A stretch of DNA of 54,769 bases from Thermoplasmata archaeon (GTDB taxonomy: Archaea > Thermoplasmatota > Thermoplasmata > Lutacidiplasmatales > UBA184), in the NCBI GenBank assembly GCA_021809545.1, contig JAKAYL010000006.1, forward strand, positions 1 through 54,769. The letters are read 5' to 3'. The notes beneath the pieces were generated by a model that was not told the DNA's origin, made no database searches, and was given only the letters and a program-made list of their open reading frames with translations. This document shows, piece after piece, positions 16,206 to 54,769 of this stretch (positions are counted from its first letter, which is position 1; the number at the start of each line of letters is the position of its first letter). A program made the translations under genes and the position numbers.

Positions 16206-16408
16206 ATTGAAACCTTCCGTGCTTTCCCCTCAGGGGGTAGTCCTACTTAAGTTTGGTCCGGTAGACGCATCCGGCAGTGAGAAAGAACTATATGCCTCAT
16301 ATCCAATGCCAAGTATTCTGCTCGAACGGGAGGATGCAACCTAGTCGGTTCCCTGACCGACAAACGAAGGGTTACCCTTAAGTGTTTGTAGCGTTTGTCC
16401 CATTTCAA

Positions 16409-19400
16409 ATGGACAGAGGAACGCTGCTCTGCGCTCTTGTTCTAAGCATATTAATAGGAGGGGCCCCATTGGGAGGCTTTCTTGAAAATAACTCTCTTGT
16501 CGCAGATTCCTCCTCCGCCCACTCGAACAATCTTAGCCCGCTTGAGTCACTCCCTCCAAGAACTCATGCGTGTACAAACTGCATAATTCAGAACATCACG
16601 GTCGGGAATTCACCACTCGGCTTGACTTATGATAGCCAAAACAATCAGATCTTTGTGCCTAATTTTAACGACGGGAATCTTAGCGTCATCGATGGAGCCA
16701 CGGACAAGGTGATAACGAATATCCCGGTCGGCAGCGCCCCACAAGGAGCATGTTTCGATACACAGAACGGGGAAATATTTGTTCCCAATTCAGCTAGCGA
16801 CACCGTTACGATAATCAATGGTTCAACAAACACAGTTGTGACGTCAACTACCGTTACGACTTACCCTAGAATAGCAGTCTTCGATAACAATAACAAGAAT
16901 ATCTATGTGACTGAGGGACAGTCTTCAGACGTTTCGATTATCAACACGTCTTCCAATACAGTGAGCGGCACAATCCCGACAGGGGCTGGGCCATACGGCA
17001 TAGCTTTCGACCCACAGAATGGGAACCTTTTCGTCGGTGACTCAAATTCAGACCAAGTTACGGTCATAGATGGAAGTAACAATTCTGTGCTCACCACAGT
17101 ACCCGTGGGATCGCAACCCTGGGGTGCGTTAGTGTATGATCCAATTGACGGTGACGTGATCGTTCCCAACTCGCTATCCAACAACATCACGGTTATCAAT
17201 GCCACAACGGATTCGGTGGTTGCTTCTGTCCCCGTAGGCGCTTACCCCTACGGGGTGACTCTCGACAGCGCCAATGGAGAGATCTACGTTGGCAATCAGA
17301 ATTCCAACAACGTATCTGTGATTAATGGAGGTACGCTCAAAGTGGATGCGACTATCTCAATGCCGGCAAACCCAAATTTTGGGGCCTTTGACTCAACCAA
17401 CAATCAACTCTTTATCCCAGATGGCGGAACCACCCTTGTCTCTGTAATTGACGCACCGCCTGCATCGTTGTTTGTCTCAAGTTTTGTCGCCTCGAAACCG
17501 AATCTTGACGTCAATCAAACAACGATACTAAATGTAACGAGTGTGGGTGGGAAACCCGCGTATTCGTACAATTACTCGGGCCTGCCAACAGGGTGCAATA
17601 GTGTCAATTCTTCCACCCTTTCATGCACGCCCACTCTACCGGGTACGTCAACTGTGAAGGTGACGGTACACGACTCTCTTGGCAACTCTACATCGGCGCA
17701 GTTGATGCTAACGATATACTCAGCACCAAAAATCGTCAACTTCACATCGATACCGAATCCAGTCTATGTCAACAACAGCACTGCCCTGAAAGCCACCCTT
17801 TCTGGCGGATCACCAACTATCACGTACAGCTATGTGGGACTCCCTAGTGGTTGTGCTTCGACCAACAGTGCATTGTTAAATTGCACACCAATAATTTCTG
17901 GAGATTTTAGCATTAAAATCTTTGCGATTGACGGTTCCGGTATTTCAACCAACGCATCACTGACCCTTAAAGTGCTCCAACCTCAACTGCCAACCATCCT
18001 CGCATTCAAGGCTTCACCCAACCCACTCACCCTTGGACAAACCACCTTTCTCAACGTGACAGTGACGGGTGGTTCGATCCCTTATGGGTTTAGCTTTGCT
18101 GGCCTCCCATTGGGGTGCACCTCATCTAACACCTCGAACCTTCAGTGTACCCCAACCGTCGCAGGTACTTTCACTGTTACTGTAACCGTCACAGATACAT
18201 TTGGTAACTCCACCTCGAGAAGTGTGGTTCTACAAGTAAACAACACCACGCCCACAGTACTGAGCATTCAGTCGATTTCTGCAAATCCGAATCCAGTGTA
18301 CGCCAACTCTGCGACAGACATTTCAACCCAAGTTCAAGGAGGCGTAGCCCCGTATATTTTTGCCTACTCGGGCTTGCCTTCAGGATGCAGCAGTGCTTCT
18401 TCGGCCAGTTTCACTTGTGTGCCATCCGCTCCAGGGAATTTCACAGTAACAGCAACCGTCAAGGACTCAGCCACACCTCAGGCCACGGCTACGGGAATTC
18501 TCGTGGTCAAGGTCCTCTCAACAAAACTAACTATTTCTTTATTCACTACAAGCTCCCCATCTGTCACCATAGGAAATTCAACAACTTTTGTAACCAAAGT
18601 TGAGAATGGTAGCACACCTTACACGTACTCTTATTCGAGTTTACCCCCAGGATGTTATAGTGCCAATGTAGCAAGCCTCCCTTGTATTCCGGATTCCCTG
18701 GGAAGCTTCAAAGTATGGGTCTTGGTTACAGACGCAAATGGTAACACGGCATCCGCGTTTACCAACCTCACAGTAACTGGAGTAGCGCTGCCGCTTTCCG
18801 TCGTCCTCTCGTCCAACGCCACTAGCATTGTTACTGGGAGCTCCGTCACGTTGTATGCCCAAGTTTCAGGAGGGACTTCACCAATATCGTTGACTTGGTC
18901 ACTAAACGGATCCAATAGTAGCCACACTGGCCAGACTTGGATCATAGTCCTGCCTCATGCCGGGACCTACACTTTTGGAGTATGGGCTACTGATGCAACA
19001 AATAGAACTGCCCCACCTTCCTTCCGAGTAGTGGATGTAACCAATCCAAATGGAGGCACCCCCACACATCCCTCAGGGAAAAGTAGTTTTTGGAATATCG
19101 ATGTTCTTGGCATCCAGCTATTCTATATCTTGCTGTTAATTATTGTTTTGATAGCGGTGGCAATTCTTGCATTAGTGCTTTTCAGGAGTCGTTCTAGCGA
19201 AAGCACTCTCCCGGAACCACCACCCCAGAACGTCGCTTCATCCCCTGTCGCCTCGCCAAAAATACCATCGAAGTACTATGAAGGGTTGCTTCTCCCCCCG
19301 GCCCCCCCGGAATGGTCGGAGGATGAGTCGTACGGCACGTATCTTCCACCCCCACCCCGTACAGCAAACTCAGCTGGAGTGCAAGAGGTACCCATACCGC

Positions 19401-20194
19401 CCCATTGGTCCTTAACAGTCTCCCCTAGCGGACTTCATGTCGAGAACACATTGCCTGGCGTTCTTTCCCCGAGTGGCGATTTAGGTACTCTGAGGAAGGA
19501 AGGGGGAGCAACACCACTAGGTGACCAGAACCAGAGGGTGATTCCCACTGAGATCGATGCCTACAATGTCTTAGCTATCCTCTCGAAAGCCCCCTGTCCC
19601 CTACCGGAGATTCGATTACCATCAACTCTGACCGACACTGCACTTTACGGCCTACTTACCGTTCTGGTTGATGCCGGCCTGGTTCTCCGCCAGGAATCTC
19701 CTACCAAGGGCCAGGTGTATGCCCTAACCCGCATCGGTTGGAGGTTTGTCCAAAGCGCAAAGTCGGACGGACTTTCTCATGTTTCTCCTGTGAAAAAGTC
19801 AGACATTGGGACCATCGAAATAGCTCGAGAGTCCGAGAACGTCGCTGATCGGAAATCTCCGATATCCCCGCCAAATACTGAAGACGCACCTGTCCCGAGA
19901 GTTATCCTGGAGCGGAGAATTGGGCCTAACAAGAACGAAGAGAATCCCTTCGGAGGTTCAATAAAACCTGAAGAAGTGAATCCCAACGTCCAACACATCG
20001 ACCCTCAGCTCCTCCAACCGATGGAGCTTCGAGTAGATGCAGATCGAGGGAAGGATTCGAGAGACTCTTCTCAGCCATCGGATGTGGAAAGTAAAACACA
20101 GAATCTCATGTCTCGTGCCAAGAAATCCAGGGCAGGGTTGGAGAAGACTACCCCGAATCAGCCTAAGGCTGCGAAGGACAATACGTCGAAGTAA
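16409..20194 (+). CDS. Giant surface receptor: YVTN propeller, Cys-paired repeats, membrane helix, cytoplasmic winged helix
   Basis: About 1261 residues. Order: signal segment (LLCALVLSILIGGAPLGG); a CTNC motif; about seven YVTN-type propeller blades (residues about 60-350, e.g. NITVGNSPLGLTYDSQNNQI); five Cys-paired GLPxGC repeats and one Cys-less repeat (about 355-870); one membrane helix (about 897-925, FYILLLIIVLIAVAILALVLF); then a cytoplasmic region of about 335 residues. The cytoplasmic part has WSLTVSPSGLHVE, then a winged-helix-like domain at about 1046-1116 (DAYNVLAILSKAPCPL, LYGLLTVLVDAGLVLRQE, QVYALTRIGWRF), then a charged disordered end. The layout suggests an outside-in one-component regulator; this is inference. 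A GTG at 16382 is an alternative start. The gene is in the lower-GC segment. Confidence 0.85.
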   Translation: MDRGTLLCALVLSILIGGAPLGGFLENNSLVADSSSAHSNNLSPLESLPPRTHACTNCIIQNITVGNSPLGLTYDSQNNQIFVPNFNDGNLSVIDGATDKVITNIPVGSAPQGACFDTQNGEIFVPNSASDTVTIINGSTNTVVTSTTVTTYPRIAVFDNNNKNIYVTEGQSSDVSIINTSSNTVSGTIPTGAGPYGIAFDPQNGNLFVGDSNSDQVTVIDGSNNSVLTTVPVGSQPWGALVYDPIDGDVIVPNSLSNNITVINATTDSVVASVPVGAYPYGVTLDSANGEIYVGNQNSNNVSVINGGTLKVDATISMPANPNFGAFDSTNNQLFIPDGGTTLVSVIDAPPASLFVSSFVASKPNLDVNQTTILNVTSVGGKPAYSYNYSGLPTGCNSVNSSTLSCTPTLPGTSTVKVTVHDSLGNSTSAQLMLTIYSAPKIVNFTSIPNPVYVNNSTALKATLSGGSPTITYSYVGLPSGCASTNSALLNCTPIISGDFSIKIFAIDGSGISTNASLTLKVLQPQLPTILAFKASPNPLTLGQTTFLNVTVTGGSIPYGFSFAGLPLGCTSSNTSNLQCTPTVAGTFTVTVTVTDTFGNSTSRSVVLQVNNTTPTVLSIQSISANPNPVYANSATDISTQVQGGVAPYIFAYSGLPSGCSSASSASFTCVPSAPGNFTVTATVKDSATPQATATGILVVKVLSTKLTISLFTTSSPSVTIGNSTTFVTKVENGSTPYTYSYSSLPPGCYSANVASLPCIPDSLGSFKVWVLVTDANGNTASAFTNLTVTGVALPLSVVLSSNATSIVTGSSVTLYAQVSGGTSPISLTWSLNGSNSSHTGQTWIIVLPHAGTYTFGVWATDATNRTAPPSFRVVDVTNPNGGTPTHPSGKSSFWNIDVLGIQLFYILLLIIVLIAVAILALVLFRSRSSESTLPEPPPQNVASSPVASPKIPSKYYEGLLLPPAPPEWSEDESYGTYLPPPPRTANSAGVQEVPIPPHWSLTVSPSGLHVENTLPGVLSPSGDLGTLRKEGGATPLGDQNQRVIPTEIDAYNVLAILSKAPCPLPEIRLPSTLTDTALYGLLTVLVDAGLVLRQESPTKGQVYALTRIGWRFVQSAKSDGLSHVSPVKKSDIGTIEIARESENVADRKSPISPPNTEDAPVPRVILERRIGPNKNEENPFGGSIKPEEVNPNVQHIDPQLLQPMELRVDADRGKDSRDSSQPSDVESKTQNLMSRAKKSRAGLEKTTPNQPKAAKDNTSK

Positions 20195-20224: not shown

Positions 20225-21292
20225 TCACTCAGCCAGGGGTGCGAGGCAGTCATACCTATGTGACCTATGGACCTTGAGGAGCGAGATGGGCTCACGGATT
20301 ACTTCCATACCAGTGAGATGATTACTCACAATAGGGAAGACTGCGGCCCTGGGGTTGGAAGCTGTACTCTCACGCCCGGTAGATCCTCGCCTTGCGGCTA
20401 GAAGCCCCACTATCACAGAATTTCCATCCGACGCTAACAGAAAGGGGAATACCCCACAAGTTTCGGCAAGATCCCTAAACAGAGCATACAGACCGTCCTC
20501 CCGTCTGACTTGCCCTGTTAAAAATACAACATCCGAAATGTCACGTCCTGCATAATCTGGAATCCTTTGGACTGACAAGAAAGTACGCCACTCGACGTAC
20601 CCGTTCGCCAAAAGTCTTCGTTGAGACCTGGGAAGAGTGGCAGGACCAATAAGATGAGACTTGCGGTGCGATGCTTCGTCTCCAAAAGGCCGGTGAATAA
20701 GGCTCCAGAGGTCAATCAAAGTCTTGTTTGAGATACCGTGGCCCCGCGAATTCTTTGCGTAAGGAAGCGCTCGAGGGTATCGAAGCACACCTTCGGCGCC
20801 CGCGAAGTGACTCCATGCTCCTTCAAAATCAAAATAAACCGGCACCAAGGGTTGATCCGAAGGGATCTCCAAGTGGATGAGTCCTCTCCCGAAGGAGTCG
20901 CCCCCTTCTACGGATGATCGAAAACGGGCCATCTCATCCACTGTGCGATGGAACACCACTCCTAAGACTGTCTGAATTCCCGACCAAACTAGAACACTTC
21001 CGGGAAAACTGCAGAGCGCCTCAGCCGTAGATTCTCGAGATTCGGCAAATGGGCGGGTAAGAAGGAATGAAACCCCCTGGTACCCCAGTACCAATGGAGA
21101 TGGAACATATCTATCTTCCAGAAGGCCAATGGAATACACTCTTTGTTTAATTTCCAGATATGTGGAACGTGGAATTCTAAGACTACGTATACGATTAGTC
21201 TCAGGCTCATCGGTTCTTGCCAGAAGATTACGTAGAACTAGAACCTCGTTTGTCGTAAGACCCCGGGGGATGACTTTGTTCAACCCGACCAT
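20225..21292 (-). CDS. HTH protein with two ligand-sensor-like domains, partner of divergent surface protein
   Basis: A 355-residue soluble protein with no membrane helix. Residues about 12-68 form a winged-helix-like domain (LTTNEVLVLRNLLA, then IPRSTYLEIKQRVYSIGLLE). This is followed by two alpha/beta segments that recall Lrp-type RAM or ACT domains: GVSFLLTRPFAESRESTAEA...FPGSVLVWSGIQTVLGVVFH (about 74-116) and DVVFLTGQVRREDGLYALF...GNSVIVGLL (about 255-300). YFDFEGAWSHFAGAEG lies between them. It is clearly homologous along its length to the protein at 53977. Both genes are transcribed divergently from a YVTN/PKD surface protein across exactly 82 bp. I infer a transcription regulator working with the adjacent receptor. 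Confidence 0.75.
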   Translation of the reverse strand: MVGLNKVIPRGLTTNEVLVLRNLLARTDEPETNRIRSLRIPRSTYLEIKQRVYSIGLLEDRYVPSPLVLGYQGVSFLLTRPFAESRESTAEALCSFPGSVLVWSGIQTVLGVVFHRTVDEMARFRSSVEGGDSFGRGLIHLEIPSDQPLVPVYFDFEGAWSHFAGAEGVLRYPRALPYAKNSRGHGISNKTLIDLWSLIHRPFGDEASHRKSHLIGPATLPRSQRRLLANGYVEWRTFLSVQRIPDYAGRDISDVVFLTGQVRREDGLYALFRDLAETCGVFPFLLASDGNSVIVGLLAARRGSTGRESTASNPRAAVFPIVSNHLTGMEVIREPISLLKVHRSHRYDCLAPLAE

Positions 21293-21374
21293 GATACACT
21301 ATGACACGGAGTCCAATCCGATAGGACGAATATAGGCCACCTACTTATATTTGGCGCCACCGTAAAAATAGTCG
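21293..21374. promoter_or_regulatory. 82-bp divergent promoter of the surface protein/HTH pair, copy A
   Basis: On the plus strand CTTATATT (21344-21351) is a TATA box 27 bp before the ATG at 21375, so the surface gene is leaderless. On the minus strand CCTATATTC (21336-21328) can serve the HTH gene. Positions 21299-21314 hold CTATGACACGGAGTCC, which matches CTATAGCACGGTGTCC at the equivalent place in copy B (53895-53976). Both regions have the same length and TATA position. Confidence 0.65.
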
Positions 21375-24320
21375 ATGTTAGCTGAACGAAAGCAACTCGC
21401 CCCCACCCCCCCCTGTTCGGGCCCCGAACAAGTGCTCCTGTCTTCGTGGGCAGCGCCTGAAGAGAAGATTTGTCGTCAGGCTGGGCGGAGACAGCCTATC
21501 GGGAATCGTTCCGGGTGGCTGACACTCAGCCGGATTGTGGTAATTATTCTTGTTGCAGCAACGGCCTCCGCCATATTTCCACTCCCACAAGTGACCCCGT
21601 TTTCCCGGAACACCAACTCGTCCCTCCCCTCAGAATCACAAGTTAGCATTCAGCATTCCCTCGTTACACCCCATACCCCACTAGCAAATCTGCCAGGAGT
21701 ACAAAAGACCCTACTACTTTCCAGTGACTCTTTGCTTTCCGGCAATTACATAAACAGCGGCACAGCCTATGAACCGAATCATTTCTTTTTTGATCCACTT
21801 AACGGCCTGCTGTACATTTCTGAACAGGCCGCAGGCCGAGTTGCAGTGATCAACACAACAACTGACCTCGTCGTAGCAAATATCAGCGTTGGAGTGTATC
21901 CCGAAGGACTGACTCTAGACAATAATAGTGGCCTCCTATATGTGGATAACGTAGGCATTAATGGCGGCAGTCAGACAATCTCGCTAATCAACACGACTAC
22001 CAACACTGTCGTCAAGAACTTAACTTCTGGAGTCGGCCCATGGATGATTGTCTATGACCCTATCACAGCATCTCTCTATTCGACGAATCGGATTTCCGAT
22101 AATGTCACGATAATCAATGCAAAGACCAACCAAGTTTCTGGGTCTATCCCCGTAGGTAGCGGGCCGTATGGCATTGTCCTTGACAAGACGAATGGACTTC
22201 TCTATGTTGCGAACGACAACGCATCGACAGTCTCCATAATCAACCCTGCCACCAACCAGGTTGTCGGCACTCTCCCCGTAGGGTCGGAGCCCCAAGCCCC
22301 ATGGTATGATTCCTCAAACAACGACATCTACGTTCCGGATTGGGGGTCAAGCAATCTTACAATTATCTCTGGTTCCTCGAACACCATAATTGGAGCCATC
22401 CCACTCGGATCTCTTCCACAAGTGGCAGCCGGCTTGCCGCACTCAGAACTCTACGTAAGCAACTCCGGATCGAATAATCTTACCGTTGTCAACGACACCT
22501 CCAATTCGGTAATGGGCTCAATCCCAGTAGGGCTACACCCGGATGGGATTCAGTTCGTTCCAAAATGCAATTGCGTGTTTGTGGCAAATCTGTTTTCTGA
22601 CTCTATTTCCATTATTTCTTTGAATGCGAGCATACCTCTTCAAACCTCGCTGAGACTCGATAGCAGCAATTCCGGTTACTCACCATTGACCGTCACCATG
22701 AGCGCTAATGCGACAGGAGGTACTCCCCCATATGCATATTCGTGGAATTTTGGGGATGGGAGCAGTGGATCTGGGTTAACCGTGAGCCATACTTTTACCT
22801 GTAATGTAGCCAATGGCACGTCCAACGTCTGCACGTACTTGGTCGTAGTGACTGCTGTAGATTCCAACGGAGTTCAGGCAACCGCCACCGCATCGGTAAG
22901 AGTCATCAACCCGAATGGATCTGGAGGGGCGCTGCTCTCGTACATCACCTTCAGTACGCCAACCGTGGGGTATGCCCCGCTCCTCGTGACTATGTCTGCC
23001 CAGGTAAGCGGAGGTGTCGCACCCTACAGTGATGAATGGGGATTCGGAGACGGTTCGACAGGTAGCGGACAACAAGTCTCACACGTGTACGATGTCCCTG
23101 CCACGGGCTGTTCAGCTCAGGGATGTACTTTCACCATTTCCTTGGTTACTGACGACAGCGGTGGACACGTGGCCACTTCCACCGCCCAAGTGACCTTGCT
23201 CAACAACAATCAATCGAGTTTCACTGTGACGCTGAGCGAGAATCCCGCTTCCGGAGTGGCGCCATTACAGACTAACTTTAGCGCCGCAGCCTCCAGTGGA
23301 GCGCCTCCATACACGTTTGTATGGGCTTTCGGTGACGGTGCGACCGCCGCTGGAGCGAGTATCCACCACCAGTACTCCGTCGCGGGAACGTATTCGGTTG
23401 TCGTAACCGCAGTAGATTCTCGAGGAGCTGTAGCTCAGGCTACTTCGACGGTTTTGGTCTACCCACAACCTCAAGGGAATCAAACTGGTGGCCTCGAAGT
23501 AGGCGTATCAGGCGACCCGCTGACTGGACCCGCACCTCTATCCCCGCTTTTGCAGGTCATGGCAACGGGCGGTCATGCCCCTTACAACTACACTTGGAAC
23601 TTCGGAGACAACTCTTCTGAAGACTGGGGTGCAGACGTCACCCATACCTACACCCACGTTGGACAGTACGTTGCCACAGTGACAGTAGAGGATGCGGCGG
23701 GAAACCTTGCGATGGCGGGTTTGATCGTTTCAGTCACAGGGGGGAGTCAATCAGCATCTCAATTGGAGGTACTTGTCGCTGCCTTTAATATGCACGGATC
23801 CGCCCCTCTTTCGACCACTTTCGCCCCCGAAGTTGTTGGAGGAAGTGCACCGTACCACCTGAGTTGGACTTTCGGAGACGGCCAGTCCACTTTGATGGAC
23901 CAGGTTCAGCCGATAACTCACACGTACCGCAATCCAGGAACCTATGCCCCTCAACTCACAGTTACGGATTCGGCGGGGCATGTTGTAACTTGGACATCTA
24001 CCGCACAAAACGCCAATCATCCATCCGTGGTAGTCACTGGTAGCACCACATCAAGCACACCATTTCTGTATGATTGGTACCTCATAGCACTTGGAGCAAT
24101 TGCCGTAGTTGTTATCGCACTACTATTATCCGTCCAAACTAGGAAGGGAAAGGAGGTTTCCGGAGATAAGAGCAACCTTGGCGATACCAACCCTTACTCA
24201 CGCTACCATTCTACCATTCCGACTCGAAACCCAAGCAAGTGGGAAAATGGAAGAAGGCTCTTGCCACCTGAACCAATTGACCCTTCTGTGGTCTACGACC
24301 CTCTCGGAGATTCGCTTTGA
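21375..24320 (+). CDS. Giant surface protein: YVTN propeller plus PKD domains, membrane helix, short tail
   Basis: 981 residues. A long N-terminal polar stretch of about 50 residues precedes the hydrophobic signal segment (IVVIILVAATASAIF). YVTN blades run from about 127 to 418 (e.g. NTTTDLVVANISVGVYPEG). Five PKD domains at about 420-890 carry WNFGDGSS, WGFGDGST, WAFGDGAT, WNFGDNSS and WTFGDGQS. The second has an extra Cys pair (GCSAQGCTF). The membrane helix is about 896-920 and a 60-residue tail ends in DPLGDSL. It is colinear, domain by domain, with the protein at 50562-53894, but has the lower GC of its segment. It is the divergent partner of the HTH gene at 20225. Confidence 0.88.
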   Translation: MLAERKQLAPTPPCSGPEQVLLSSWAAPEEKICRQAGRRQPIGNRSGWLTLSRIVVIILVAATASAIFPLPQVTPFSRNTNSSLPSESQVSIQHSLVTPHTPLANLPGVQKTLLLSSDSLLSGNYINSGTAYEPNHFFFDPLNGLLYISEQAAGRVAVINTTTDLVVANISVGVYPEGLTLDNNSGLLYVDNVGINGGSQTISLINTTTNTVVKNLTSGVGPWMIVYDPITASLYSTNRISDNVTIINAKTNQVSGSIPVGSGPYGIVLDKTNGLLYVANDNASTVSIINPATNQVVGTLPVGSEPQAPWYDSSNNDIYVPDWGSSNLTIISGSSNTIIGAIPLGSLPQVAAGLPHSELYVSNSGSNNLTVVNDTSNSVMGSIPVGLHPDGIQFVPKCNCVFVANLFSDSISIISLNASIPLQTSLRLDSSNSGYSPLTVTMSANATGGTPPYAYSWNFGDGSSGSGLTVSHTFTCNVANGTSNVCTYLVVVTAVDSNGVQATATASVRVINPNGSGGALLSYITFSTPTVGYAPLLVTMSAQVSGGVAPYSDEWGFGDGSTGSGQQVSHVYDVPATGCSAQGCTFTISLVTDDSGGHVATSTAQVTLLNNNQSSFTVTLSENPASGVAPLQTNFSAAASSGAPPYTFVWAFGDGATAAGASIHHQYSVAGTYSVVVTAVDSRGAVAQATSTVLVYPQPQGNQTGGLEVGVSGDPLTGPAPLSPLLQVMATGGHAPYNYTWNFGDNSSEDWGADVTHTYTHVGQYVATVTVEDAAGNLAMAGLIVSVTGGSQSASQLEVLVAAFNMHGSAPLSTTFAPEVVGGSAPYHLSWTFGDGQSTLMDQVQPITHTYRNPGTYAPQLTVTDSAGHVVTWTSTAQNANHPSVVVTGSTTSSTPFLYDWYLIALGAIAVVVIALLLSVQTRKGKEVSGDKSNLGDTNPYSRYHSTIPTRNPSKWENGRRLLPPEPIDPSVVYDPLGDSL

Positions 24321-24387: not shown

Positions 24388-27300
24388 TCAGGACTTCTTC
24401 TCCTGAATGTTCTCGGTGTCTCCTCGGACCTCGGCTGACCAGCTCTGATAGACATCCCGGGCGGAAGGGGTGGAGGGTTCAGGGGTCTTCGGACGGCCCT
24501 TTTTCTTCGTCGAACCCTTCTTTCCCTTGGGCATCTTCTTGTCTGGGACCTGCGAGGATTCGCTCGGCGCAGGCTCCTTCTCTTGGGATGTGCCCTTGCG
24601 GTTGATCCTCTGGCCCAGGGGAGTGAGGGAATAGAGAGGTTCTCCCTTCTTCCTCACGGCCCCCTTCGCCACCAGCTGGGCTTTGATCAGGACTCCCAAC
24701 AGGACCGCAAACCGGTCATCTGAGAGTGCAACTTGCTTCCTTAGAGAATCCGCTGTCTGCGCCTTCTTGGCCAGCGCAGCCATGATGGCGTAAGCATCCT
24801 GCCCCTTGAGAGGCTCCTCGGGTGGAACTGCGGGTTCCGGTTCCCCCTCCGGTGTCTCCTTCCGGATTGGGATGTTCGTGACCGGTTTCGCCCCGGGGCC
24901 GATCTCCTGGAACTCGATCCCCTCCGTGGTCACTTTCATCGTCCAGGGGCGATAGATATCCTCTGGGACGGGGGTGGAGGATCCCTCCTTCGCTACCTCT
25001 TCGGCCTCTACGGCCAAGGGATAGCTAGCCTCCACAACCTCCGGGGGTTCGCCGGGCTGCGGGGGCAAGGGAGAATCCGACCCCGGGCTGGGAGCCTCGG
25101 GTTCCTGGTCCGAGGTAGAGGGCTTCTCCTGATCCCTGTTCCGGGCCCAAAAGAGCGCAAAGAAGAGGACCGCAGCAAAGATGGCCACGGCAAGAAGGAT
25201 CCAGACCAACGCAGAGCCCCCGAAGAAGGTCCAGGGAGAGCTCGGTGTGCTGGTGCCACCCTTGGAGAGCACCTTGAGAACGAGCACGTTGCTTGTCGTC
25301 GAGAGCCCCGCATGGTCTGTCACTGTCACGGTGATCGTGTAGGTTCCAAAGTGGGTGGGAGTGCAGGGCAGGTTGCTAGTATTGGAGGAAAGGCAACCCA
25401 GGGGCAGTCCCGAGTAGGCGAAAGAGTAGGGCGCAGTCCCTCCCGACACGGTGACAGTGATCAGGGTCTTTTGCCCGAGGTACAGAGGGTTCGGGTTTGC
25501 CGAATAGGCATAGATGAGGGGTCCGCCCGGGTTCCCCAGGGGGTTCACCGTAAGGGTCAGAGAGGCCGTGACAATCCGTTGCTCGGCGTCGACCACCGTC
25601 ACCTTGACGGTGAAATTCCCGCTGACCGAGGGCGTGCAATAAAGCAGGCTGCTGTTGGCCGTGGAGCAACCGCCCGGGAGACCAGTATACGAGAACGAGT
25701 ACGGCAGAATACCCCCACTCACATTGGTCGACAGATTGGTGGTGCTCCCGAGGGTGAAATTGTCGGGTGTCGCTGTGAAGGACTGGATGTAAGGTGAGGA
25801 GGAGGGGATCGGCCGGACCGTGAGATTAGTAAATGCGGTCACCGAAGCCCCCTCGGCGTCCTTGAGGTAGACCTCAAGGTCAAAGGTCCCTGTCGCGGTA
25901 GGAGTACAGTTCCAGGTGGCCCGGTTCGTGGTGGAACAGCCTGCAGGTAAGCTCGGCGCACCAGTGTAGGAGAAGAAGTAGGGGACCAGTCCCCCGGTCG
26001 CGTTGACCTGGACGGTCGTGGAGTTCCCGAGCATTACGACCGAGGGGGAAGCCGTGAAGGAGGTGATGAGAGGATCAGAGACTACGTCCAATGAGAGATT
26101 GGCGCTCCGGACGGTGAAACCATTGGAATCCGTAGCTGTCACGAAGAGAATGTAGTTCCCCGGCTGCGAAGGGGAACACACGAGCCGAGAACTGTTCTGC
26201 GTCGGGCATCCAGGTGGGAGACCCGACCACACCAAGGTATACTGGCCCGTGCCCCCCAGGGTCGTGACGTTGAGCTGGAGCGAGCGATTGGCGTCCGTCG
26301 GGTTGTGGTTCGCGGAGGGAGCCGAAACCGAGGGGTCCGAGTAGACCGGGAAGTAGAGAGGGGATCCCGTCGTGTTGGCAAATCCGTTCGAGTCCTGAAC
26401 CGACACGCTCACCGTGGATGAGCCGTTCTGTGCCACGGAGGGCTGGCACGAGAGGATCGTGGAGTTCCCGGAAACACATCCTGCGGGAAGCCCGGACCAT
26501 GAGATGTTGTAGACCCCAGTCCCGTTCGAGACCGCGACAGTGAAGTTCACCAATTGACCACTGTCCGCAGAAGGGCGAGAGGCTACGACCGGGCCCACTT
26601 GGTCGTCGGCCAAGACCGTGTAGGTGAGAGGGGGGGCGACCACGGTGAAATTGTGGGTATCTTCGACTGTCACGTTGACGAGGAAGGAGGCGTTCTTTGT
26701 CACGGAGGGAGTGCAGGAAAGGGCGGAGAGGTTCTGGGACAGGCAGCCCGTCGGCAACCCAGTCCAGGTGAAGGTGTAGGTCCCGGAGCCCCCGGTGGCT
26801 GTGGTGTTGAAGAGCACCGTCTGTCCGGAATCGATCGAAGAGGGGACGGCCCGCACAGGAGAGAGCGCGGGGTCAGGGGCCACGGTGACCGGGACGGGCG
26901 GGCTGTTGGTCGTTCCCCCGACGGCGTCGGTCACGTTGACGTAGACCGAATAGCTGCTGTTGCTGGGCACCTTGGCCGTCGTGCAGGTGAAGCTCGGGAG
27001 GTCCTGCGACGAGCAGCCCGGGAGGGACTTCCATGCGAACACGTACGGAGCCACACCCCCGGTGACCTGCGTCGAGAACCGTATCTGCTGCCCACCATCG
27101 ACCGAGGAAGTGTTGACCACGGGACGGGAGGCGGCGAGCGCCCCGGCGAAGTACCAAGTGTCCTGAAGATAGTTGGTGCGGGGAGGGGAGGTCGTGGTAC
27201 TCATGCCCCCGAAGAAGAGTGAAGCGCGGGTGGTCGAGTCGAAACTCGCCCCCATGTCTCTCCTGCCCGTGGGGCTCGTCGGAAGATTCGCCGTAAGATT

Positions 27301-28332
27301 GGTCCAGGTCCCCGCTCGGAAGGTCCAAGTGTCCCCTAGGTTGGGATCCGCCGGAGAATAGCCCCCAAAGAGCACGGTCGTGTTGAGGGAGAAGTCGTAG
27401 GCGATCGCCACTTCGCTCCGTTCGGAGGGGTGTGCGGCGGCGGGCTTTGTGATGTTGCTCCAATGCCCCCCTGAGAACACCCAAGTGTCGTTCTGGTACC
27501 CCCGGGGCCCTTGCCCCCCAAAGAGCAGGAGGTAGCCGTCCCCGGAATCGTAGACCATACCCTCATTCCCCCGCGGAGCGGGTCTGATGAATATGGAGGC
27601 CGAGATGTTCTGCCACTTTCCCCCCTGGAAGGTCCAGGTATCATCTAGAAAATTCTGGTTCGTAGCGCCGGTAACCCCACCGAAGAGGACAACTGTACCC
27701 GACGTCGTGTCGAACGACATCCCCGCCCCGGATCTCGCCGAAGGACTGCTCGACTGCTGCGAGGTCAGGTTCGTCCAAACCCCGTGAAGGTACTTCCATG
27801 TGTCGTTCAAGTGGGTCGTTCCGGTCCAGCCCCCGTACAGGAGGACATAGCCGTCGGCCGCATCGTACGTCATCGACGGCCATTCGCGGGCGGGAGGCGC
27901 GGGGGAGACGGTGATCTGGCTCCAACTCCCGTTCACGAACTTCCAGGTATCCCCAAGGACCCCAGTTCCCGTCATGCCTCCGAAGAGGAGGACATAGCCG
28001 TCGGCCGCATCGTAAGTGAGGCCCATACCGGCTCGTACCGAAGGTGAAGTCCCGGAGCTCACCTGGGTCCAGCCCTCGGCGGCGATACCCAAGGGGTGTG
28101 AGGGAGTTGCGTGGCTGACCGGGTGGCTCAGCGAGCGAATCGCCTGGGCCACTGCCTCGTGCGAGAGGAGGAGAGGCGAACTCGCCACGCCATCAGCTCG
28201 GGCATGGGATCCCCCGGCTCCTTCCGTCACCAAAGCGTAGCCGCTGGAAAGGAGGAGAACTAGGAAGGCTAGGTACACTAAGGCCTGGCCTCCCCGCTCC
28301 CGCCGCGCCTGGTGTCCGTCGGGGAATCTCAT
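24388..28332 (-). CDS. Giant surface receptor: Kelch propeller, Cys-paired repeats, membrane helix, cytoplasmic winged helix
   Basis: About 1314 residues. The signal segment ALVYLAFLVLLLSSGYALV is followed by Kelch-type blades (about 60-400) with repeated LTYDAADGYVLLFGG and DTWKF/DTWTF motifs. Seven Cys-paired GLPxGC repeats follow (about 410-1020), then one membrane helix at about 1034-1062. In the tail, WTMKVTTEGIEFQE is followed by a winged-helix-like domain at about 1176-1243 (DAYAIMAALAKKAQTADSL, FAVLLGVLIKAQLVAKG, PLYSLTPLGQRI) and a Lys-rich end. The W-x-x-x-V...G...E segment plus winged helix is shared with the protein at 16409, although the extracellular propellers differ and the GC content differs. 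An upstream in-frame GTG abuts the ATG at 28332. Confidence 0.88.
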   Translation of the reverse strand: MRFPDGHQARRERGGQALVYLAFLVLLLSSGYALVTEGAGGSHARADGVASSPLLLSHEAVAQAIRSLSHPVSHATPSHPLGIAAEGWTQVSSGTSPSVRAGMGLTYDAADGYVLLFGGMTGTGVLGDTWKFVNGSWSQITVSPAPPAREWPSMTYDAADGYVLLYGGWTGTTHLNDTWKYLHGVWTNLTSQQSSSPSARSGAGMSFDTTSGTVVLFGGVTGATNQNFLDDTWTFQGGKWQNISASIFIRPAPRGNEGMVYDSGDGYLLLFGGQGPRGYQNDTWVFSGGHWSNITKPAAAHPSERSEVAIAYDFSLNTTVLFGGYSPADPNLGDTWTFRAGTWTNLTANLPTSPTGRRDMGASFDSTTRASLFFGGMSTTTSPPRTNYLQDTWYFAGALAASRPVVNTSSVDGGQQIRFSTQVTGGVAPYVFAWKSLPGCSSQDLPSFTCTTAKVPSNSSYSVYVNVTDAVGGTTNSPPVPVTVAPDPALSPVRAVPSSIDSGQTVLFNTTATGGSGTYTFTWTGLPTGCLSQNLSALSCTPSVTKNASFLVNVTVEDTHNFTVVAPPLTYTVLADDQVGPVVASRPSADSGQLVNFTVAVSNGTGVYNISWSGLPAGCVSGNSTILSCQPSVAQNGSSTVSVSVQDSNGFANTTGSPLYFPVYSDPSVSAPSANHNPTDANRSLQLNVTTLGGTGQYTLVWSGLPPGCPTQNSSRLVCSPSQPGNYILFVTATDSNGFTVRSANLSLDVVSDPLITSFTASPSVVMLGNSTTVQVNATGGLVPYFFSYTGAPSLPAGCSTTNRATWNCTPTATGTFDLEVYLKDAEGASVTAFTNLTVRPIPSSSPYIQSFTATPDNFTLGSTTNLSTNVSGGILPYSFSYTGLPGGCSTANSSLLYCTPSVSGNFTVKVTVVDAEQRIVTASLTLTVNPLGNPGGPLIYAYSANPNPLYLGQKTLITVTVSGGTAPYSFAYSGLPLGCLSSNTSNLPCTPTHFGTYTITVTVTDHAGLSTTSNVLVLKVLSKGGTSTPSSPWTFFGGSALVWILLAVAIFAAVLFFALFWARNRDQEKPSTSDQEPEAPSPGSDSPLPPQPGEPPEVVEASYPLAVEAEEVAKEGSSTPVPEDIYRPWTMKVTTEGIEFQEIGPGAKPVTNIPIRKETPEGEPEPAVPPEEPLKGQDAYAIMAALAKKAQTADSLRKQVALSDDRFAVLLGVLIKAQLVAKGAVRKKGEPLYSLTPLGQRINRKGTSQEKEPAPSESSQVPDKKMPKGKKGSTKKKGRPKTPEPSTPSARDVYQSWSAEVRGDTENIQEKKS

Positions 28333-28411
28333 CACGGGCGCTCAGTCATCCCCGGGGGCGCAGATTAACTTTGCTCCCGTGGGAGAAACGACCTCTCCGG
28401 ACAACACAAAT

Positions 28412-50561: not shown

Positions 50562-53500
50562 CTACTCCCCCCGGTGGAACGGTGCGTACGGAGGGATCAC
50601 GCTGCGGAACACGTCGCGAAGAGGGTCATCGATCCGCGGAGGCGAGGGGGGAGAGGGGCGTCCCGCTCCATTGTCTCCCACCGGAGGCGGAGTGCGGGGG
50701 ATCGATTGCCCTCCGGAATTACCCGAAGGGGACGGGGGCTGCTTCTTCCTCGCGAGCAACACCACCACAACAACTATCACCACCACTACCACGACGAAAG
50801 GGAGCACGTACTCGATGAGCCCGTTCGTCGTGGAGCCCGTGCCAGTAGCCTTCACCTTGACCGGAGCAGGAGGGGACAACGACTGGGACGACCAAGTTGT
50901 CACGTTTCCCCGGGCGTCGGTCACCTGGAGGCTGGGGTAGTAGGTCCCGGCCTTCGCGTACGTGTGCGTCACCGGAAGTGCGGCGGACACCGTGTCTAAG
51001 GGCGATCCGTCTCCGAAGTTCCAGCGGAACTGGTACGGAGCGGTGCCCCCATAGACCGATGGGAAGAACGTCAGGGAGGTCGGGGCGGAACCCTGAAGGC
51101 TCACCATGGTGACGAAAGCGGTGAGCGGGCTGCCCGAGGAAGAGGGTGCTCCGGAGCCGTAGACCGTGACGAAGACACCGGTGGTGGCCGAGACGCTACC
51201 GTCCGAGACCACGAGCGTGGCCACGTACTCTCCAGGAATGGAGTAGGTGTGGAGGACGGAGGATCCGTTGGTGGAGGTGGCTCCGTCTCCAAAGTTCCAG
51301 GAATAGGTGTACGGGGCGGTGCCGCCGACGACCTGGGACTGGAAGGCCACGTTGAGGGGAGCCATGCCGGTGGCGGGCACCGCGGAGATGCTCAACTCTA
51401 GGGCGCCCGACTGGTTGGAGGGAGGAGCAGGGTACGCCACGATGGGGAGGGCCGCTTGGGTGACCGACCCGTTCGCGTCCACCACGGTCACGATCGCGGT
51501 GTACGTGCCGGCGTAGGCATACACGTGCGAGGCCGTGGGACCAACGGCCGAAGATCCGTCCCCGAATGTCCAAACCAAGGTATACGGGGAACGACCTCCG
51601 CTGGGTGTCGCCGAGAAGAGGGTGGCCAAGGGAGCCACCCCGGTCGAGACCGAGGCTGCGAGGGTCACAGAAAGGCTGGAGGAGCTCTTTGCGACCAACG
51701 TCACAAGGGCTCGGGCACTCGCCACCTGCGCAGCGGCATCGCTCACGACGAGCGTGACGTTGTAGGTGCATCGCGAGGCCTTGCAACCGGAGGGCATCGT
51801 GGTGTACGTGTGGGTGACGGTCGGAGAGGTCGACGTCGCCCCGTCCCCGAAGGACCACTGGTAGCCGAAAGGGGCCGTCCCGCCCGACACGTTCGCGCTC
51901 ACCGTCACGCTGAGGGGCGCCGGCCCTAGGTTGGGAGATTCGAAGAGCACCTGAGCACTGAATTGGTTGGAGACCACCGGTTTGACCGTAACGAAACCCG
52001 TGGCTGAGGCAGTGTCTCCTCGGGAGTCCGTGACTGTGAGAACGACCGAGTAACTACCAGGGGAGGTGTAGGTATGCGAGATCGTCAGGCCCACACCTGA
52101 GGTGCCGTCCCCGAGAGCCCAGGAGTAGTTGTAGCCAGGGTACCCTCCGGAGGACGTCCCGGTCATGGTGACGGTGAGCGGGGCGGGGCCGTAGTTAGAG
52201 GAGTCAAAGTAGAGTGTGGCGAGGAGCGGGTTGGCAGGTCCCTGCACGATGAGCGTTCCCGTAGCGGTGTGGGCCACCCCGTCTCCATCCGTGACAGTGA
52301 CCGTTACGGAGAAGTTTCCGGTGGAAGTGGGAGTGCAGACCCACAAGCCCCCGGTGCCGGGAACACACCCGGATGGGAGCCCTGTGTAGGAGTACGAAAG
52401 CGGGGGAGTGCCACCAGAGGTCTGCACGGACACCTGGGTCGAGTTGTGGAGGGCTACGCTCCCCGGGGAGAAGGTGAGGCCGGAGACCACGAGCGGGGGA
52501 TTCACCGTGAAGCTGGTGCTGGCGCTGGACTTGCTGCCGTTCGAATCTACCACAGTCACGCCCACAACGAAGGTCCCGTTCACGGTGGGGACGCAATACA
52601 AGGCAGAAGTGTTGGCGGAAACGCAACCCGAGGGGAGGTTCGAGTAGGAGTAGCTGTAGGGAAGCGTCCCTCCCACGACGGACACATTGAGGTAAACCCC
52701 CAGCCCCTCGTCGAAGGATACGTTCGAGGGGGAGAAGCTTGTGATGGCCGGCAGATTCGGGTTCGTTGCTTGGATCATGGTCACCGTATCCGAGAGAATG
52801 TTGCTGGCGTACAGCAGCCCGGTGACGGGATCCGTCATGATCCCTTGGACGCTATAGGCGGTCCCGGTGGGGATGGACCCGACGACCTTGTTGACCGAGG
52901 GGTCGATCACGGTCACATACGGCGACTGGAGGTTCCCCACGTAGATTTCGCGGGTGATGGGATCGTACGTGGCGGCCCGGGGGTAGGTCCCGGCCGCCAA
53001 CGTGGCGAGGACGGTGAAATTGCTCCCGTCGATGACCGTCACGTCGTTGCCGTTCGGATTGGTCACGTAGACGTTGCCGTTCATCGGATCGACCGCCATG
53101 CCGTTGGAGGAGAGCCCGGTCGTGACGGAGGCCACGGGCTTCCCCGTGGAGCCGTTCAGGATGGTGACGTTGCCGGGCACCGCTGCGACGAAGTTCTGGG
53201 TCGCAGAAACGTAGACGTAGTGGTTGAAGGGATTGTAGAGGACGGACCAGGACTCGACCCCCGCAACGAAGTTCCCCACTACCCGGTTGGTCGTGGTGTT
53301 CACGATGAGCCCCAACTGGGAACTGGAACCGTTGGTAGTAACGAAGAGCAACCGGCTAATGGGATCGTAGTCGATCCCCCCGGTAGCGTACCCTGCGCTC
53401 ACGTTCCCGACCACGGCCCCCGTCGAGCCGTTGAGAATTGCGATATAGTTGGATTTGCCGCTGGTAACGTAGACGTCCCCGTTCGCGGTGTCCACCGCAG

Positions 53501-53894
53501 CATTCCCGTCATCTGGGTACACGTTGGAGTTCGCGACGACGGTGTTGGAGGTCCCGTTGACAACGGTCACATTGGACGAGCCAGTGTTCGGAACGTAGAT
53601 GTTGCCGCTGATGCGATCGTACACGAGGTAGTCCGGGCCGGAACCCACGGTGATGTTCCGGAGTACGCAATTGGTGCACCGGGGAGCGACCTTTACCTGG
53701 ACGGGCAACGGCTGGGAAAGGGAGGATCCAACCCCTGTGGAAGCCCCTAGGGGATGGGCCATGGACAAGTTGGAAGTGAGCAGGAAGAGCAGGATCCCAA
53801 GGATCAATACAGGGGAAAAAGAGAGTCGTGAGACACGAGCGGGGAGGTACCCGTGAGTGTAGTTCTCCTTTGCAGTGCGTTGAAGGGCCTTCAT
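50562..53894 (-). CDS. Giant surface protein: YVTN propeller, Cys-paired repeats, PKD domains, membrane helix, short tail
   Basis: 1110 residues. The signal segment (SFSPVLILGILLFLLTSNLS) is followed by a CTNC motif at about residue 73, YVTN blades to about 383 (e.g. NITVGSGPDYLVYDRISGNI), two Cys-paired GLPSGC repeats (about 385-560), and five PKD domains (WALGDGTS, WSFGDGAT, WTFGDGSS, WNFGDGAT, WNFGDGSP). The membrane helix lies at about 1024-1049, with a 60-residue tail ending near DPLRDVFRSV. The PKD run is colinear with the protein at 21375, including the second-domain Cys pair (GCKASRCTY). ATG at 53894 is 27 bp after TATA CTTATATATG; a longer frame to 54110 runs antisense into the partner gene. 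Confidence 0.88.
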   Translation of the reverse strand: MKALQRTAKENYTHGYLPARVSRLSFSPVLILGILLFLLTSNLSMAHPLGASTGVGSSLSQPLPVQVKVAPRCTNCVLRNITVGSGPDYLVYDRISGNIYVPNTGSSNVTVVNGTSNTVVANSNVYPDDGNAAVDTANGDVYVTSGKSNYIAILNGSTGAVVGNVSAGYATGGIDYDPISRLLFVTTNGSSSQLGLIVNTTTNRVVGNFVAGVESWSVLYNPFNHYVYVSATQNFVAAVPGNVTILNGSTGKPVASVTTGLSSNGMAVDPMNGNVYVTNPNGNDVTVIDGSNFTVLATLAAGTYPRAATYDPITREIYVGNLQSPYVTVIDPSVNKVVGSIPTGTAYSVQGIMTDPVTGLLYASNILSDTVTMIQATNPNLPAITSFSPSNVSFDEGLGVYLNVSVVGGTLPYSYSYSNLPSGCVSANTSALYCVPTVNGTFVVGVTVVDSNGSKSSASTSFTVNPPLVVSGLTFSPGSVALHNSTQVSVQTSGGTPPLSYSYTGLPSGCVPGTGGLWVCTPTSTGNFSVTVTVTDGDGVAHTATGTLIVQGPANPLLATLYFDSSNYGPAPLTVTMTGTSSGGYPGYNYSWALGDGTSGVGLTISHTYTSPGSYSVVLTVTDSRGDTASATGFVTVKPVVSNQFSAQVLFESPNLGPAPLSVTVSANVSGGTAPFGYQWSFGDGATSTSPTVTHTYTTMPSGCKASRCTYNVTLVVSDAAAQVASARALVTLVAKSSSSLSVTLAASVSTGVAPLATLFSATPSGGRSPYTLVWTFGDGSSAVGPTASHVYAYAGTYTAIVTVVDANGSVTQAALPIVAYPAPPSNQSGALELSISAVPATGMAPLNVAFQSQVVGGTAPYTYSWNFGDGATSTNGSSVLHTYSIPGEYVATLVVSDGSVSATTGVFVTVYGSGAPSSSGSPLTAFVTMVSLQGSAPTSLTFFPSVYGGTAPYQFRWNFGDGSPLDTVSAALPVTHTYAKAGTYYPSLQVTDARGNVTTWSSQSLSPPAPVKVKATGTGSTTNGLIEYVLPFVVVVVVIVVVVVLLARKKQPPSPSGNSGGQSIPRTPPPVGDNGAGRPSPPSPPRIDDPLRDVFRSVIPPYAPFHRGE

Positions 53895-53976
53895 CGGGAC
53901 AGAATTTGTCCAATACATATATAAGGCGCAGTGCGATGGAACGGGGATGCGACCGGACACCGTGCTATAGCTTGAC
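53895..53976. promoter_or_regulatory. 82-bp divergent promoter of the surface protein/HTH pair, copy B
   Basis: The minus-strand TATA box CTTATATATG (53925-53916) lies at the same offset as in copy A (21293-21374). Reading from the HTH gene toward the surface gene, CTATAGCACGGTGTCC occupies offsets 7-22, matching CTATGACACGGAGTCC in copy A at the same offsets. No TATA box for the HTH gene is evident in this copy. Confidence 0.65.
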
Positions 53977-54769
53977 ATGACCGTTGCTGCCTTTCCCAAC
54001 GTACGGAGTTTGACGGACAGCGAAGCCACCGTGGTTCGATGCCTTCTAGGAACGCAGACCGAGCCCTCGGAAGAAGAGAGGATCCGAAGGTCGGGACTCG
54101 CACGTAGCACCTACCTGGACGCGAAGCTGCGGGTCTATTCGTGGGGGCTGGTCCAGGACATGTACGTGCCGAGCCCCGAAGTGATCAACGTGCCTCGGAT
54201 CTCCTTCTTCCTGGCGCGTTCCTTCACCGATCAGCGAGAAGCCCTGGCCCATACGCTCCTGGCCTTCCCCGGCACGGTACTGCACTGGGCGAGCCCCCAG
54301 TTCCAGCTCGTCGTGATCTTCCATCGCTCCCTCGAGGAGGAGCGGCAATTCTCAGACTCCCTCGAACAACTCTCCCGGATGGGGAGGGTACTTTCCTGCC
54401 TCCAGGTCGGGTCGGGGGCAGGGAGCGCTCCGATCTACTTCGACTACGAGGGGATCTGGAACAACTTCTGTGGTTTCTCCGGGCTCCGGAGCTACCCCCG
54501 GGGACTGCCGTCGGCCCCGAAAAGCCTCCTGGGGCTCCCCGCGAAACGAACCGCACCCCTGCAGCCGCTCGGAGAGCTCTTGCGACGACCTTCCGACGGC
54601 TCCGTGGACGGACGCCCCCAGCATCTGCTGGGTCCTGCCTCCCTTCCGAGGTCCCAACGTCACCTCCTCGAGTCCGGTGCGGTCGAGTGGAGGGTCTTCC
54701 TCCCTCTGCAGACGCCCGCCGCGTATCGGAGCGCCTCTCTTGCCGATATCGTGTTCCTTGTCGGCCAAC
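53977..54769 (+). CDS. HTH protein homologous to the one at 20225, cut by right window edge
   Basis: 264 residues are visible. The N-terminal winged helix LTDSEATVVRCLLG...LARSTYLDAKLRVYSWGLVQ aligns without gaps to the copy at 20225. It also shares YFDYEGIWNNFCGFSGL, the LPRSQRHLLESGAVEWRVFL linker and the start of the second sensor-like domain (ADIVFLVGQ) at the edge. It should run about 90 residues further by comparison. The ATG at 53977 matches the homologue start. It is divergent from the surface protein at 50562. Confidence 0.8.
   Translation, partial: MTVAAFPNVRSLTDSEATVVRCLLGTQTEPSEEERIRRSGLARSTYLDAKLRVYSWGLVQDMYVPSPEVINVPRISFFLARSFTDQREALAHTLLAFPGTVLHWASPQFQLVVIFHRSLEEERQFSDSLEQLSRMGRVLSCLQVGSGAGSAPIYFDYEGIWNNFCGFSGLRSYPRGLPSAPKSLLGLPAKRTAPLQPLGELLRRPSDGSVDGRPQHLLGPASLPRSQRHLLESGAVEWRVFLPLQTPAAYRSASLADIVFLVGQ

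Follow-up and report, generated by a model that had tools for sequence, protein, structure and literature searches.

Apart from kinases and single-chain membrane regulators, little is understood of how archaea pass signals from the cell surface to their genes. Among the described systems close to the one reported here, BarR is an Lrp/AsnC regulator that responds to beta-alanine (PMC10201364), and in E. coli the soluble repressor Mlc is removed from DNA through its binding to a membrane protein, PtsG (PMC3901232). We analysed a stretch of 54,769 nucleotides from a Thermoplasmata archaeon (assembly GCA_021809545.1, contig JAKAYL010000006.1; hereafter the window, corresponding to contig C35 of a genome of 1.96 Mb with 99% completeness). 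This window holds two gene pairs, each made of a surface receptor and a soluble helix-turn-helix (HTH) protein encoded head to head, at 20225-24320 and 50562-54769, as the initial annotation of the stretch had described. The comparison of these pairs with their homologues suggests a two-protein, kinase-free module with interchangeable parts, in which a tandem Lrp/AsnC-type regulator would dock to a seven-residue motif at the end of the inner tail of its membrane partner.

The neighbours of 135 distinct HTH genes were tabulated, and missed motifs were rechecked at the DNA level (extension of open reading frames, ORFs; an over-strict first pattern). The partners have in common an inner tail of 40-75 residues ending with D-P-L-x-[HDN]-L-[WLF]. 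A membrane neighbour with such a tail was found for 112 of the 135 genes, or 111 once the L105 assignment, a wrong ORF at a contig end, is removed. Most HTH genes without a motif neighbour are cut by contig ends, which brings the proportion to about 111 of ~117 assessable genes, and the fragmentation of the metagenome-assembled genomes (MAGs) conceals some partners. As controls in the same loci, a motif neighbour was observed for 6 of 200 other genes, and the motif itself in 2 of 54 other tailed membrane ORFs.

The partners carrying this tail belong to unrelated groups: 64 are a ~490-aa beta-rich surface protein, 33 are propeller/PKD proteins and 15 are proteins with seven transmembrane helices (7-TM), with two (2-TM, about 130-290 aa) or of other kinds, including two minor types; one 7-TM partner matches DUF973. 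The initial annotation had named, as a refutation of its reading, homologues of the HTH protein that mostly occur without an adjacent YVTN/PKD surface gene. Taken literally, this is what is observed, most of the homologues having another kind of neighbour, and YVTN/PKD, found in about 30% of the partners only, was rejected as the defining feature. What is conserved in the partner is the seven-residue end of its cytosolic tail and not the ectodomain; in the ~490-aa receptor, 3 of the 10 invariant columns fall within these residues. Pfam and NCBIfam searches with this receptor gave nothing usable, and the predicted fold of its ectodomain was not used: the model (pLDDT 79) has long beta strands and resembled outer-membrane barrels only in matches of low probability, and no viral match was convincing. 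The divergent layout is the commonest among 100 oriented pairs (77 divergent, 12 convergent and 11 co-directional) and is not required; with 23 pairs not divergent, a shared promoter is unlikely to be the sole reason for the adjacency. As a separate observation, the tiny 2-TM motif-tailed partners mostly precede a ~780-870-aa multi-TM protein (L013 10559-13331; L145, L156, L167, L176, L177), which may be a third component.

The motif is tied to the presence of the HTH gene. A DNA pattern for DPLxx[HND]LW-stop gave 72 matches in 103 genomes of the family and a single match when reversed and, in genomes with a located HTH gene, 57 of 61 matches lie 1.4-1.7 kb from it. Among the ~490-aa receptor paralogues, the alignment reaches the tail end in 65 of 70 HTH-adjacent sequences versus 3 of 55 orphans, i.e. 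receptors with no HTH gene beside them (Fisher 1.7e-25, the counts and the value being those of non-independent events, as orthologous receptors are related). The motif was retained in 2 of 45 complete orphan receptor sequences, whose helix and tail length are the same as those of the HTH-adjacent paralogues. In one HTH clade, the membrane part alternates between 2-TM and 7-TM proteins while the tail remains DPLDHL[LV] or a close variant. The HTH phylogeny tracks the receptor class, with 20 changes versus a shuffled mean of 51.7 (0 of 200 shuffles), so that co-inheritance of the pairs is the rule. A tail that stays with the regulator while the membrane protein changes to an unrelated one, and that is lost without a neighbouring regulator gene, is what would be predicted of a docking site.

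Upstream of the HTH genes, we observed a 26-bp element, TTGGAC-nCC[AG]-TGCTA-n5-T[CA]GCA, that includes at these promoters a 5-5-5 dyad (TGCTA-N5-TAGCA). The element scores above 12 in 77 of 128 HTH upstream regions, in 0.5% of 788 control upstream regions and in 0% of shuffled HTH upstream regions, the contrast with the controls being somewhat optimistic because the matrix was trained on the HTH upstream regions. The window genome contains only two sites at ≤2 mismatches, which are the promoters of both window HTH genes, and its 3-mismatch sites are at background level. In other genomes, most additional copies are located before the orphan ~490-aa receptors, about 85 bp from the start and in reverse orientation; when orphan receptors were collected by homology alone, the element was present at 36 of 40, compared with 1.5% of shuffled sequences. 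The regulon predicted from these sites would likely comprise the regulator together with its own receptor and a receptor paralogue that is not docked. Most of the orphan receptors of loci L187-L191, L196 and L198 adjoin a urocanase-like gene, five with a tRNA-Thr(TGT) nearby, and this neighbourhood is conserved without an HTH gene.

At the HTH genes, the element lies downstream of a TATA-like box, about the transcription start and before the start codon, a position that would also suit an RNA feature of the 5' untranslated region or a core-promoter feature unrelated to the HTH protein; such a feature would take the DNA part out of the model and leave the docking part in place. We consider this unlikely, because the element is also found reversed and farther upstream at the orphan receptors, is absent from other promoters at the rate given above, and has a dyad that suits an Lrp-type dimer.

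Short C-terminal motifs can serve as degradation or targeting signals, and regulators standing beside their own targets are common. The tail motif might, then, be a signal that serves generally for the sorting, stability or degradation of the surface proteins of this lineage, with the HTH protein exerting local control of the surface gene only, for which the shared promoter element would be suited. The chance of this is small, considering that the orphan paralogues, identical in helix and tail length, and the other tailed membrane ORFs of the same loci have the motif in two cases each, and that it accompanies the HTH gene across unrelated membrane proteins. The regulator could also sense a small ligand via its Lrp-like domains, as Lrp/AsnC regulators are mostly responsive to small molecules, BarR to beta-alanine being one example (PMC10201364), and merely control the receptor gene, while the tail motif recruits a third protein. 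The element and the divergent layout fit this explanation, and the motif could bind any cytosolic partner. It seems nevertheless rather improbable: where no HTH gene is nearby, the motif is gone although the element is present, and the motif is thereby linked to the HTH protein and not to gene control or to a third protein.

The structure of the regulator was then considered. The initial annotation had described an HTH with sensor-like domains; the AlphaFold model obtained with an alignment of 61 homologues (pLDDT 92, pTM 0.91) presents instead two tandem Lrp/AsnC-like halves, a winged HTH and a beta-alpha-beta-beta-alpha-beta domain followed by a reduced copy of the HTH and another domain of the same kind, and no membrane helix was found in the protein. 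Foldseek retrieved with this model NirDL, a siroheme decarboxylase of two fused Lrp-like halves, as the best whole-chain match (E 6e-7, TM 0.43; TM 0.43-0.49 over both halves), together with many Lrp/AsnC regulators. The family profile (hmmsearch) reached the archaeal Lrp PH1519 across its HTH and RAM domains with E=3.7e-4. The two halves exhibit weak similarity only when compared by sequence (hhalign probability 36%), and the tandem assignment is made from the structure model and from tandem homologues. The family is not named by any model of Pfam or NCBIfam. According to the structure model, the regulator is a divergent tandem relative inside the Lrp/AsnC superfamily and not a standard single-unit Lrp. 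That it is a membrane-acting enzyme of the siroheme-decarboxylase kind, as the NirDL match would allow, is very improbable, given that the profile search yields a DNA-binding Lrp and not siroheme decarboxylases, that the recognition-helix residues R42, S43, T44, Y45 and R51 are each at least 90% conserved, that the gene neighbours are membrane proteins and not haem genes, and that up to eight paralogues per genome would be odd for a biosynthetic enzyme.

The genomes closely related to the window genome are MAGs of Thermoplasmata, with UBA184 and Candidatus Lutacidiplasma silvani among the related loci, so that it would belong to the Lutacidiplasmatales. The regulator family is present throughout the family of the window genome. 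With at most five candidates scored per genome, it was not found in the three genomes sampled from other families of the same order, and only distant matches were obtained elsewhere in the class. The tandem homologues, at loci L147-L150 of other Thermoplasmatota families, are soluble and Lrp-like, measure about 360 aa and have two HTH units that can be recognised; they match the regulator family in profile-profile comparison (E=1e-8), no motif-tailed membrane partner was found near them, and they are likely its outgroup. Public MAG records titled 'bacterium' (L099, L100 and L115) carry these archaeal genes, a congener of the window genome being matched by L099 and by L115; the titles are probably wrong.

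A mechanism of four steps may be proposed. The regulator is, by structure prediction and profile match, a tandem Lrp/AsnC-type DNA-binding protein, and the comparative sequence analysis shows its partner to be a membrane protein whose ectodomain is one of several unrelated kinds and whose short inner tail carries the motif. The motif would be the docking site: in one state, the receptor would expose its tail and hold the regulator at the membrane. In its own promoter and in those of receptors, the regulator would bind TTGGACnCCrTGCTAn5TmGCA, and docking would alter the transcription of the regulator, of its receptor and, in many genomes, of an undocked receptor paralogue. Where the regulator transcript presumably starts, the position of the element fits autorepression; its position about 85 bp upstream of the receptor starts fits a control of the receptor genes, perhaps activation, the sign being a guess.

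As a whole, we regard this model, for which the evidence is comparative throughout, as fairly probable. The initial annotation had proposed a surface contact sensor whose state is passed to the HTH protein; the tail motif, the promoter element and the co-inheritance strongly support such a transfer, for which the YVTN/PKD ectodomain is not defining. Several observations weigh against the model. Two orphan receptors from one genus, L210 (G267:C97) and L217 (G243:C86), retain DPLGHLY without an adjoining HTH gene, and could pair with a regulator encoded elsewhere in the genome. Six assessable HTH genes (L040, L059, L146, L152, L154 and L160) are genuine or possible exceptions with no clear motif partner. 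At about 40% of the HTH genes, chiefly those outside the group with the ~490-aa receptor, the element is absent or cannot be recognised, so that recognition would have to differ between paralogues, which have probably diverged in this respect. The closest whole-chain fold being that of an enzyme, and the relatedness of the receptors counted, are to be added to these.

In the window, regulator 1 is a 355-aa protein encoded at 20225..21292 on the minus strand. Its promoter element, TTGGACTCCGTGTCATAGTGTATCAT (21291..21316, minus strand), ends at the start codon and scores 25.7 with 2 mismatches. Receptor 1 (21375..24320, plus strand) presents a YVTN propeller and PKD repeats, a membrane helix at residues 902-920 and a cytosolic tail of 61 residues, at the extreme C-terminus of which DPLGDSL (24297..24317, plus strand) fits the family motif. 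Regulator 2 (53977..54769, plus strand) is cut by the window end after the first 264 residues, the remainder being on contig C50. The last 127 bases of the window (54643-54769) are identical to the end of C50 (L014 10651-10777) in the right orientation; C50 is therefore probably the neighbour of the window contig in the genome, and the joined gene encodes 355 aa. Its promoter element, CCGGACACCGTGCTATAGCTTGACAT (53953..53978, plus strand), also ends at the start codon, with a score of 26.0 and 0 mismatches. Receptor 2 (50562..about 53894, minus strand) is a YVTN/PKD protein of about 1110 aa with a membrane helix at residues 1030-1048 and a tail of 62 residues. Its motif, DPLRDVF (50607..50627, minus strand), lies 14 residues short of the C-terminus, an internal position also observed in several relatives (L045-L049).

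The features that the initial annotation had read from the two pairs were largely borne out. Their members are homologous along their length, with HTH proteins 45% identical (1e-68) and receptors that can be aligned along the greater part of the sequence (1e-111, with 45% over 489 aa; 39% in the global alignment), each with the single C-terminal membrane helix and the tail of about 60 residues that had been noted, which bears a short motif and no HTH. The GC contents of the pairs are 51.7% and 63.0%. The view that such a pair is a retained unit is supported. That the pair is present twice is right for the window; the genome, for its part, has seven HTH paralogues, and its congeners seven or eight (eight matches in each of the four, some of them fragments). 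Six of the seven in the window genome have a motif partner, with the tails DPLGDSL, DPLRDVF, DPLEDAL, DPLSYLM, HPVENIW and DTLDHLL, and the partner of the seventh is cut by a contig end.

On either side of pair 1 are surface proteins with long cytosolic parts, at 16382-20194 (plus strand, YVTN/PKD, with a propeller in common with receptor 1) and 24388-28335 (minus strand, Kelch/PKD). These parts appear to contain a winged helix of their own, with weak matches to PadR (E=0.17) for the first and HTH_34 (E=0.009) for the second, and each protein may thus combine in one chain what the pairs divide between receptor and regulator. Elsewhere, a surface protein of 1965 aa (L009 3393-9290), repetitive and with a C-terminus that is cytosolic and zinc-ribbon-like, lies directly upstream of one HTH/receptor pair.

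No existing description of this system was found in a search of the open-access literature, most subscription journals being outside its reach. We propose, tentatively and with a little less than even confidence, an undescribed class of archaeal signalling, with ectodomain-swappable receptors of unrelated folds, tandem Lrp-type paralogues, a seven-residue docking code and feedback through a shared operator. It looks like a new way of surface-to-gene signalling without a kinase in a lineage of soil archaea, and the diversity of the ectodomains suggests that many external signals are involved. The comparison across the lineage supplies a code in a short peptide and an element in the DNA, and the orphan receptors without motif serve as a negative control from within, so that the question of surface-to-gene signalling can now be tested with one peptide, one protein and one DNA fragment. 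Additionally, a regulator family without assignment and many giant surface proteins gain putative functions, and a rule becomes available for matching receptors to regulators in genomes.

Compared with known systems, the pairs differ from two-component systems, which have histidine kinase and receiver domains, as neither member has such Pfam matches. NirDL has the two fused Lrp-like halves of the regulator, which differs from it by the lack of haem or heme-d1 gene context, by a conserved DNA-recognition helix and by a profile search that misses NirDL. The winged HTH and the RAM-type beta-alpha-beta-beta-alpha-beta domain are those of Lrp/AsnC (FFRP) regulators such as PH1519 and BarR, and a dyad element lies between the divergent promoters, as for BarR (PMC10201364). 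Lrp/AsnC proteins have, however, one HTH-RAM unit per chain of ~150 aa, whereas the regulator has a second, reduced unit in 355 aa and a near-constant membrane-protein neighbour, no amino-acid gene context having been noticed. The tandem proteins of L147-L150 share its length, its two HTH units and a linker (IPRFFDFAPLL versus VPVYFDFEGLW), unlike it without a nearby motif-tailed membrane partner. In regulators of the ToxR/CadC type and in Sulfolobus ArnR, an extracellular state could likewise affect transcription without a kinase, the DNA-binding and membrane parts being in one chain there and in two proteins here (PMC10269533, PMC6396743). If docking is right, the working principle is the same as that of Mlc and PtsG. 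Mlc is a ROK-family protein and docks to a transporter; here, an Lrp-like protein would dock to a seven-residue C-terminal tail motif carried by many types of receptor.

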